DNA from: Planctomonas sp. JC2975
GTDB taxonomy: Bacteria; Actinomycetota; Actinomycetes; Actinomycetales; Microbacteriaceae
DNA: 64,000 nucleotides
Assembly: GCF_012985205.1 (NCBI RefSeq)
Contig: NZ_JABEKS010000001.1
Coordinates: 2,418,001 to 2,482,000 of the forward strand
Direction of reading: 5' to 3'
How positions within the stretch are numbered: position 1 is the stretch's first letter; every line of letters begins with the position of its first letter. Positions 3,037 through 57,741 of the stretch are shown piece after piece. Under the pieces are notes generated by a model. It was given only the letters and a program-made list of their open reading frames with translations. It had not been told where the DNA came from and searched no databases. A program made the translations under genes and the position numbers.

Positions 3037-3441
3037 ATGAACGACTCGGATCCGTGCCCGTGCGGAAGCGGATCGACCTACGCCCAATGCTGCGCGCCAC
3101 TGCACCGCGGTGTCGCGACGGCCGGCACGGCCGAACGGCTCATGCGATCGCGGTACTCGGCGTTCGCGGTGGGTGACGCTGCATATCTGCGTGCGACGTG
3201 GCATCCGTCGACGCGGCCGCGCGACCTCGAGCTGGACCCGGAGGTCGAGTGGCGGCGTCTGGTGATCGTCGACACGGCCGCGGGCGGCGAGGCCGATGAC
3301 TCGGGTGAGGTCGAGTTCCGCGCATTCTGGCGCACACTGCCGGCACCCGGCAGGGCGCGGGACGGCGGCGTGCTGCACGAGCGCAGCCGTTTCATCCGAG
3401 AACGCGGCCGCTGGTATTACGTCGACGGTGACATCGCCTGA
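3037..3441 (+). CDS. YchJ-family protein with SEC-C motif
   Basis: 134-residue protein of the YchJ family. The N-terminal SEC-C zinc motif is CPCGSGSTYAQCC (residues 7-19), followed by an NTF2-like domain (SRYSAFAVGDAAYLRATWHP, then a C-terminal RWYYVDGDI strand). SEC-C motifs bind zinc and are best known from the tail of SecA; YchJ itself has no firm function. ATG 3037 was chosen because AGGAAC lies just upstream at 3031 and the SEC-C motif starts a few residues in, as in the family. The gene is enclosed between two inverted repeat arrays, which probably shape its transcript ends. Confidence 0.85.
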   Translation: MNDSDPCPCGSGSTYAQCCAPLHRGVATAGTAERLMRSRYSAFAVGDAAYLRATWHPSTRPRDLELDPEVEWRRLVIVDTAAGGEADDSGEVEFRAFWRTLPAPGRARDGGVLHERSRFIRERGRWYYVDGDIA

Positions 3442-3507
3442 CGGTCCACCACGTCGATTAGGCCCAGGCCCCGCAGTCGGCCGGTCGAGAGCAGAGATAG
3501 GCAGTTT

Positions 3508-3775
3508 CGGGAGGAGGAACGGGCACCCTCGGGAGGAGGAACGCGCACCCTCGGGAGGGGCGGGCGCCCTCGGGAAGAGAAACCGGCACCCCCGAGAGGA
3601 AAAACGGGCACTTTCGGGAAGAGAAACCGGCACCCTCGGGAAGAGAAACGGGCACCCTCGAGGAGAGGAACGGGCACGGTCGGGAGGCGGAACGGGCACC
3701 CTCGGGAGGAAGAACGGGCACGGTCGGGAGGAGGAACGGGCACCCTCGGGAGGGGGAACGGGCACGGTCGGCGGG
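3508..3775 (+). repeat. Array B: twelve 22-bp repeats, inverted copy of array A
   Basis: Units begin at 3508, 3530, 3552, 3571, 3593, 3615, 3637, 3659, 3681, 3703, 3725 and 3747, with a decayed thirteenth from 3769. The period is 22 bp except one 19-bp unit. Consensus is CGGGAGGAGGAACGGGCACC plus CT, the reverse complement of the array A unit. Variation is mainly at GGAGG/GAAGA and at CACCCT/CACGGT, the latter alternating in the last part. The array occupies the 363-base gap between two convergent genes (ychJ-like and padR), so both transcripts would run into it. Confidence 0.9.
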
Positions 3776-4694: not shown

Positions 4695-5411
4695 CTACGG
4701 CTGCACCGGGTCCAGCTTGAAGCGCACGACGTCGACGGAATCCTCGTCGCGGATGCCCGGGTAGTGCCCCAGCAGACCGGTGCGCAGGTCCTCGGCGATC
4801 GCACCGCCCTCGAGCCGGGCATCCGCATCCGTGATCTCGTCGAACCGCTTGGTCTCCACGGATTCCACGACTCCGCGCAACCGCTTGTACCCTTCGTCGA
4901 ACTCGAACACCAGCCAGGCGGGGCCAGGAAAGCACGGATCGTCGAATCGCGTCGTCGCCGTCTTCCGACCGCTGAGCACGGCGTCGTAGTAGCGCGGGTT
5001 GAACCGGATGAAGCGCTGTGGTGCCGCCTCCGGCCAGCCGTACGAATACGGCAGGAGGTGCCGGATGTTCACGAGGCCGGGGCCATCCGGCGTCGGCACG
5101 ATCACGGCGCAGCCCGGCTGCTGGTCGAGCATCACCTGCCAGCAACGTCCGCACGGCGAGACGACCCCACGGCCCTTGTCACCGACCGCCACCATGGTGG
5201 TCAGCGGCCCTGCGCCGGCTGCGGCGGCGACGCCGAGGACGACCAGCTCGGCGCACGGCCCGCCCGTGAAGTGATGATCGTTGAAGGCGGTGTAGATGCC
5301 GCCGGCGGTGTCCATCGCGGCGGCGGCAACGGTGTGATCCGGATCTCCTACGAGAGCCTGGGCCTGACGGATCGCGGCGTCGAGGACGCGCTGTTCTGGG
5401 GGATACAACAC
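4695..5411 (-). CDS. Blasticidin-S-deaminase-like cytidine deaminase fused to ASCH domain
   Basis: 238-residue two-domain enzyme. Residues 1-~128 are a cytidine-deaminase fold. The zinc and catalytic motif is C53-A-E55 within [14 protein letters not shown], and the second zinc motif is S-P-C87-G-R-C90. By eye this region is strikingly like blasticidin-S deaminase of Aspergillus, which shares the [14 protein letters not shown] and SPCGRC segments. Residues ~131-236 are an ASCH domain. SGRKTATTR places K150 and T153 where the E. coli amidohydrolase YqfB has its catalytic K21 and T24, and E201 is a candidate for its E74. YqfB hydrolyses N4-acetylcytidine, so the fusion could deacylate and then deaminate cytosine nucleosides. 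GTG start with GGAAGAG upstream. Confidence 0.8.
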
Positions 5412-57576: not shown

Positions 57577-57741
57577 TTATCGCGGCCGCGCCACTTCAAC
57601 CGACTCCATCGGCTCGGCCATGCGAGCAAGCTCGCGCGGCGCTCACCTCAGTCGTCGGTTATCGCGGCCGCGCCACTTCAACCGACTCCATCGGCTCGGC
57701 CATGCGAGCAAGCTCGCGCGGCGCTCACCTCAGTCGTCGGT
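57577..57741. repeat. Exact 82-bp tandem duplication
   Basis: 57577-57658 and 57659-57740 are identical 82-bp copies; the identity includes the next base. Each copy contains GCGAGCAAGCTCGC, a 6-bp stem with a 2-base loop, and CGCGGCCGCG. The duplication lies in the 310-base gap between the divergent ROK gene and the MFS gene, and ends 12 bases before the MFS start, so it duplicates whatever promoter or operator is there. The rest of the gap shows nothing recognisable. Confidence 0.95.

Follow-up and report, generated by a model that had tools for sequence, protein, structure and literature searches.

Within the 64,000-nucleotide stretch of Planctomonas sp. JC2975 DNA analyzed here (the window), a single minus-strand gene joins a blasticidin-S-deaminase (BSD)-like domain to a YqfB-like ASCH domain (Table 1). 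The initial annotation had claimed such a fused reading frame at these coordinates without naming the strand, and the claim was borne out: one 238-aa ORF spans the interval, and it recurs in other assemblies. The GTG start region was also found in the same-genus homologs L003 and L004. Pfam placed ASCH (PF04266) on residues 136 to 232 with 41.3 bits against a cut-off of 21.2. On residues 7 to 97, the zinc-deaminase model scored 23.8 bits and so fell slightly short of its cut-off of 25. No NCBIfam model scored above cut-off for the fused protein; the top weak matches were to models of cytidine deaminase, and the model for N4-acetylcytidine aminohydrolase gave 15.4 bits, also below cut-off. A second ASCH match in the host genome was not detected at E ≤ 0.001. 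Across 49 fused sequences scanned with Pfam (E ≤ 0.001), ASCH was found in 48 and the deaminase model in 33. The family profile was built from 49 fused sequences, and an AlphaFold2 model of the fused protein was computed with 54 sequences (mean pLDDT, 90.4; pTM, 0.84). Residue counts below refer to an alignment of 61 fused rows that includes the window protein, near-identical rows, L068 (with a deletion in part of the ASCH motif), L105 (N-terminally short), and L081 (with Lys for the catalytic Glu). The fusion is real and recurrent; since it was found again in many separate assemblies, a local assembly artefact is ruled out. We found no published description of the fusion among the open-licence papers listed in the literature searches.

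Table 1. Positions of the fused gene, its two domains, and its active-site residues in the window
Feature	Position	Strand	Details
Fused BSD-like deaminase and YqfB-like ASCH gene	4695..5411	minus	238 aa; GTG start at 5411; stop codon included
Zinc deaminase domain resembling blasticidin-S deaminase (N-terminal, residues 1-128)	5028..5411	minus	phmmer 1wn5, 125.5 bits; model vs 2z3g
H47-F-T-G-G-P-C53-A-E55, with the first of the zinc ligands (C53) and the catalytic Glu (E55)	5247..5273	minus	C53 in 61/61 and E55 in 60/61 fused sequences
P86-C87-G-R-C90, second and third zinc ligands	5142..5156	minus	C87 in 61/61; C90 position Cys 39/61, Asp 22/61
C-terminal domain, residues 132-236, YqfB-like ASCH	4704..5018	minus	PF04266, 41.3 bits; model vs 9kyf; profile vs 1te7
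G148-R-K150-T-A-T153-T-R155, corresponding to YqfB Lys21, Thr24, Arg26	4947..4970	minus	K 60/61 (one gap); T 59 and S 2; R 61/61
E170, at the YqfB Arg43 position, family-specific	4902..4904	minus	Glu 61/61 fused; YqfB alignment
E201, corresponding to YqfB Glu74	4809..4811	minus	Glu in 19 and Asp in 26 of 61 rows; neither in 16
Y217, corresponding to YqfB Tyr89	4761..4763	minus	Y 59/61

The N-terminal half is BSD-like, as had been proposed. In a phmmer search against solved structures, the Aspergillus terreus BSD (A. terreus; 1wn5) scored 125.5 bits (E = 1.5e-35) and the C. immitis BSD 116 bits, compared to 35 bits for the top ordinary cytidine deaminase (CDA); with the family profile, the scores were 174 bits for BSD versus 65 bits for ordinary CDA. 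The AlphaFold2 model superposed on BSD 2z3g with a Z score of 21.0 and an rmsd of 1.6 Å over 121 residues, while the highest-scoring ordinary CDA reached a Z score of 15.9. The catalytic Glu and all three Cys zinc ligands are present in the window protein (C53, E55, C87, and C90), and the motif residues named by the initial annotation—C53-A-E55 and P86-C87-G-R-C90—are correct. True cytidine deaminases bear an NxEN(S) motif in region II (PMC9897663), but the window protein has N44-D-H46 instead, and position 46 is Y in 36, H in 16, F in 7, C in 1, and D in 1 of the 61 fused sequences, with Glu in none. Both fungal BSDs have Y at the equivalent position. A separate ordinary Cdd of the NVEN type, reading NVENASYGLTLCAEC...PCGRC, is encoded in the host at G000 C2. 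Because the N-terminal half is closest to BSDs and is without the NxE Glu, and because the genome encodes a separate Cdd, we regard it as BSD type and not as the host's salvage deaminase.

The A. terreus and C. immitis (3oj6) BSDs share with the N-terminal half their fold, the zinc motif, its HF(T/N)GGPCAEL context, and the missing NxE Glu, and the A. terreus enzyme is 46 to 51% identical to it in structural alignments. However, the solved BSDs are stand-alone chains of 130 to 158 aa, whereas the window protein has a second enzyme-like domain attached, and 22 of the 61 fused proteins have Asp in place of the third zinc Cys. BSD is also reportedly known from Streptomyces lividans. Tetrameric CDAs such as CDA_F14, which release N4-acyl groups, resemble the N-terminal half in applying zinc-deaminase chemistry to N4-substituted cytosine nucleosides (PMC9897663), but they have the NxEN(S) motif and act without a second domain, and ordinary CDAs score at most 35 bits against the N-terminal half. 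The fused rows with Asp as the third zinc ligand (PCGRD) are L035, L036, L042, L054-L067, L083, L089, L092, L102, and L103; PCGRD, with Asp as a candidate zinc ligand, was also seen in six stand-alone BSD-like proteins (L015-L020).

For the C-terminal half, resemblance to YqfB had been proposed, and it held by sequence, profile, and model. When the ASCH half alone was searched at E ≤ 1, YqfB entries were the sole solved structures matched, although weakly (1te7, E = 0.012; 9kyf, E = 0.018). The family profile matched YqfB structures at 5.6e-8 (1te7) and 1.2e-7, and no other ASCH structure passed an E value of 0.01 with this profile. The AlphaFold2 model aligned to YqfB structures with Z scores of 14.7 to 14.9 and rmsds of 1.6 to 1.9 Å (for 9kyf, a Z score of 14.7 and 1.6 Å over 97 residues), compared to Z scores of no more than 10.8 for the other ASCH structures listed. 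Among these, the Zymomonas ASCH ribonuclease, PH0355, 3s9x, and 1t62 have the ASCH fold in common with the C-terminal half but align at Z scores of 7.6 to 10.8. A paper on the 2025 YqfB structures was not found in the literature searched.

Mutagenesis of YqfB provides a guide to which of its residues matter. The K21A, T24A, and R26A variants are inactive (PMC6972931 Table 3), E74A lowers turnover 100- to 1,000-fold, and Y89A and H70A reduce activity. On N4-acetylcytidine (ac4C), kcat/Km falls to about one-half in D27A and to about one-fifth in H70A, and T24S is roughly normal (PMC6972931). In the fused family, the essential positions are occupied by Lys in 60 of 61 rows (the remaining row has a gap), by Thr or Ser in all 61, and by Arg in all 61; the position of Glu74 is acidic in 45 rows (Glu in 19 and Asp in 26) and non-acidic in 16. 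Asp27 and His70 are invariant in the YqfB branch (PMC6972931) but are not conserved in the fused family, where the window protein has F156 and D197. Thus, the ASCH residues conserved family-wide are those that inactivate YqfB when mutated, and the two lost ones are less critical in YqfB. Loss of the ASCH catalytic residues in a structural alignment had been named as a possible refutation; in the alignment with YqfB, K150, T153, R155, E201, and Y217 are all intact; the initial annotation had correctly aligned K150 and T153 to YqfB K21 and T24 and E201 to E74, and R155 and Y217 align to R26 and Y89.

Escherichia coli YqfB (1te7 and 9kyf-h) shares with the C-terminal half its fold and its active-site Lys, Thr, and Arg, the Glu (Glu or Asp in 45/61), and the Tyr. 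It differs in being a stand-alone protein of 103 aa with about 26% identity and in having Arg43 where the fused family has E170. Since Asp27 and His70 are not found, we describe the C-terminal half as YqfB-like and do not place it in the YqfB branch proper, and since an invariant Glu sits at the Arg43 position, the substrate of the ASCH half may differ from that of YqfB. YqfB is the E. coli N4-acetylcytidine amidohydrolase, for which two papers propose ac4C as the primary substrate (PMC6972931, PMC9599836). YqfB-type enzymes also hydrolyze N4-benzoylcytidine and, slowly, N4-(4-acetylbenzoyl)-2'-deoxycytidine (PMC9599836).

Full-length fusions were recovered from three of five same-genus genomes, 7 of 299 same-family genomes, 28 of 396 same-order genomes (which held six more short or split copies), 20 of 392 Streptomyces genomes (one more had a deletion in the ASCH half), 2 of 396 genomes sampled across the phylum, and 6 of 21 matching plasmid records. 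These counts were taken from the query ranges of the matches listed, and the window's genome was counted where it fell in the sample; Brachybacterium sp. EE-P12 is one carrier. In Streptomyces, matches at E ≤ 1e-25 occurred in 151 of the 392 genomes, mostly to the BSD half alone. On Rhodococcus (R. gordoniae) plasmid pDND3A, the fused gene lies between IS3 and IS5 transposases. Genome G877 carries the gene twice, once near each end of its 8.66-Mb main contig at a distance of 15 kb; the fused gene is 110 to 310 kb from a contig end in G914, G491, and G1040 and mid-contig in G912. Patchy and partly plasmid-borne, the fused gene is behaving as an accessory gene.

Both halves are under purifying selection, since NG86 dN/dS was below 1 in 14 of 14 pairs (0.06 to 0.32 for the BSD half and 0.11 to 0.60 for the ASCH half), with the qualification that the pairs are not independent and that dS exceeded 1 in 7 of the 14. 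Some copies and relatives are decaying, because the catalytic Glu is replaced in fused L081, part of the ASCH motif is missing in fused L068, and a zinc Cys or the catalytic Glu is lost in stand-alone L010, L011, and L048. A search with the ASCH-half profile, mostly covering 1.5 kb on each side, returned nothing at E ≤ 0.5 for 27 of the 28 stand-alone BSD-like rows examined, which have the BSD half alone. In the remaining row (L038:5995-8164, on a Paenarthrobacter plasmid), a BSD ORF and an ASCH ORF stand on either side of an IS256-family element that shows a target duplication of 8 bases; the row is apparently a fusion gene interrupted in its linker by that element. Nearby ASCH sequences were considered as split partners and rejected: ASCH genes lie about 2 kb from the stand-alone BSD genes of G034, G166, and G259, and G832 has an ASCH fragment at 0.7 kb from its own, but all of these fall in a different ASCH class, one that has no Arg. 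Since many relatives of the BSD half have no ASCH half, deamination alone must be useful.

In a tree of the deaminase domain, for which 93 rows were thinned to 73 and L038 was scored as stand-alone, fused and stand-alone rows interleave, with eight label changes on the best tree, two of them forced by starred branches. YqfB was not firmly placed in the ASCH tree. Judging from these sequences, one old fusion followed by repeated losses and several separate fusions both fit, and either way the two halves would have been associated over long times.

The initial annotation had read the VOC gene ahead of the fused gene, together with a divergently oriented AraC regulator, as a detoxification clue, but this setting turned out to be incidental. 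The SecC-PadR-VOC-AraC block (SecC being our own label for window gene 3037-3441) is found in the same-genus genomes G179 and G126 at the same locus without the fused gene, with about 300 bases between PadR and VOC versus 946 in the window; in G126, the fused gene is on contig C11 and VOC on contig C16. Because the block exists without it, the fused gene is best seen as an addition to or a loss from the VOC site, with VOC and AraC unrelated to it. An operon with VOC/AraC is ruled out, as the VOC ortholog adjoins PadR and AraC in both of these genomes. A promoter scan of the gap between VOC and the fused gene gave no site, although such a scan says little in actinobacteria.

A search for other fusions and their neighbors, suggested at the outset, did find fusions but few neighbors common across genera. 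The neighborhood clustering took 46 loci as input and resolved the focal gene in 40 (all but L120, L126, L127, L129, L133, and L143). Clusters listed in at least three loci fell within genus g323, except for an ABC-type ATPase, found near the fused gene at differing distances in three loci across genera, and a RibD-like gene, found in three loci, two of them duplicates of a single plasmid. Of 169 selected neighbors, 101, all from loci other than the window, were scanned with Pfam and yielded 131 families, none in more than four proteins. No antibiotic gene cluster was seen near the fused gene among the neighbors surveyed. A phage or defence origin was also considered and set aside: PADLOC gave no match for a defence system, phage records gave one match, to the ASCH part only, and of 14 stretches that fitted the pattern in viral contigs, none was confirmed.

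In amicetin-class antibiotics, the p-aminobenzoate arm is an N4 amide of cytosine. The N4-benzoyl-type substrates of YqfB-type enzymes thus have the bond type of amicetin's p-aminobenzoate amide. The arm is described in two papers (PMC12856912, PMC4278220), and a third describes BSD enzymes as known for inactivating a peptidyl-nucleoside antibiotic (PMC9897663). The fused protein very probably has two working active sites. In the leading reading, to which we give slightly less than an even chance, it is a bifunctional enzyme that has spread horizontally and detoxifies N4-acylated cytosine nucleosides, e.g., antibiotics of the amicetin class. The ASCH half, with Lys150, Thr153, and Arg155 and with Glu201 as the acid, would hydrolyze the N4-amide of an N4-acylated cytosine nucleoside, and the BSD half, with zinc on C53, C87, and C90 and with Glu55, would then deaminate the freed 4-amino group to give a uracil product. 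As long as the acyl cap is in place, a BSD-type deaminase would be expected not to reach the 4-amino group, and the deamination step would make the loss irreversible. The likely natural substrates would be cytosine nucleoside antibiotics produced by actinomycetes: N4-acylated antibiotics (the amicetin, plicacetin, and bamicetin class) would be likely substrates of both halves, and uncapped cytosine antibiotics (blasticidin-S type) would be likely substrates of the BSD half alone. The chemical coherence of this two-step logic is supported; the activity of either half, the order of the steps, the substrate, and the resistance role we infer. More tentatively, it is possible that the protein is specifically a one-chain resistance enzyme in which the YqfB-type site removes a p-aminobenzoyl-type cap and the blasticidin-type deaminase takes the uncapped cytosine. 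A resistance mechanism of this two-step kind for the amicetin class was not found described in the literature searched, and it would also give a YqfB-type domain a natural task beyond ac4C turnover.

The nearest alternative to catalysis by both halves is that the ASCH half is only a binding module, for substrate or nucleic-acid recognition or for assembly, and that all the chemistry falls to the BSD half, perhaps N4-deacylation included. Direct release of N4-acyl groups is known from some ordinary tetrameric CDAs (PMC9897663), which means that a dedicated deacylase is not a strict requirement and that the ASCH half could be noncatalytic; domains of the PUA/ASCH superfamily in general bind nucleic acids (PMC7641849); and the frequency of stand-alone BSD-like rows (27 of 28, the other being IS split) and the non-acidic residue at the Glu74 equivalent in 16 of 61 rows would also suit such a role. 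We nevertheless consider it unlikely, since the Lys, Thr/Ser, and Arg essential in YqfB are kept in 60, 61, and 61 of the 61 fused rows, whereas 16 of the 25 other ASCH rows from the surveyed genomes are without the Arg. Three more of those 25 have KxxExR and one is cut short, and KxxTxR was found just in the other five, which are stand-alone relatives of the ASCH half (L039 and L170-L172, two of the five being the same gene). In addition, YqfB-type ASCH proteins are reported to bind no nucleic acid in EMSA (PMC9599836).

Two readings that would retain both activities on other substrates were given lower weight than the binding module. In one, proposed in the initial annotation as salvage, the ASCH half would convert ac4C from RNA turnover to cytidine and the CDA half would convert cytidine to uridine. 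PF13718, which we take to be the acetyltransferase domain of TmcA, was found in none of 20 carrier genomes at E ≤ 0.001, and neither was PF05636 (TmcAL), with E. coli and Bacillus (B. subtilis) controls positive, respectively. For TmcA, we took PF13718 to be more specific than the PF05127 helicase model. The latter matched weakly and in part within large frames in 5 of the 20, host included, so a diverged ac4C writer is still conceivable. Salvage draws on the proposal of ac4C as the primary substrate of YqfB and on the observation that N4-acetylcytosine meets the uracil needs of E. coli via CodA, better with yqfB than without (PMC6972931). In that case, separate enzymes carry out the conversion to uracil, CodA being needed and growth without yqfB being poor, not abolished (PMC6972931). 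Together with the absence of both ac4C writer models, the BSD-type deaminase half without the NxE Glu, the ordinary NVEN-type Cdd of the host, and the patchy, partly plasmid-borne, noncore distribution of the gene make salvage improbable. Clean-up or scavenging of some other, non-antibiotic N4-acyl cytosine metabolite seems the least probable of the readings weighed here. It would accord with the failure to see an antibiotic gene cluster and the scarcity of neighbors common across genera, with the family-specific E170, and with the broad acyl tolerance of YqfB-type enzymes (PMC9599836), but the known action of BSD enzymes on a peptidyl-nucleoside antibiotic (PMC9897663) and a plasmid and chromosome-arm distribution like that of resistance genes argue against it.

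If the two-step detoxification reading is correct, it would offer the ASCH superfamily, most of it uncharacterized, a clear test case and would suggest a function for plasmid proteins annotated just as "ASCH domain-containing protein." It would also mean that soil actinobacteria already have a portable enzyme that inactivates cytosine nucleoside antibiotics with or without a cap. This bears on current attempts to bring these scaffolds back into use, as blasticidin S-amicetin chimeras carry para-aminobenzoate arms on the C4 amine (PMC12856912).

Several further observations concern BSD-like genes and the window itself. A BSD-like protein without the ASCH half (L014:1459-2124) bears a C-terminal antibiotic-biosynthesis-monooxygenase (ABM) domain, and on a Curtobacterium plasmid, an ABM gene (L033:5656-5937) lies 60 bases upstream of a BSD-ASCH fusion on the same strand. 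A stand-alone BSD-like gene in Deinococcus psychrotolerans (L040:4745-6396) shares an overlap with the end of a gene for a Zn-dependent hydrolase and has ABC transporter genes upstream; its role there is perhaps catabolic and not one of resistance. In the window, an 82-base unit is duplicated exactly in tandem at 57577-57741, its two copies being 100% identical, and two arrays of a 22-base repeat of the TCGGGAGGAGGAACGGGCACCC type, in opposite orientation, flank gene 3037-3441 at 2759-2944 and 3507-3765. A 27-base probe of the repeat matched 78 sites across the whole genome with up to three mismatches (43 forward and 35 reverse), compared to 0 for the reversed control, and many of these sites are spaced 22 bases apart.
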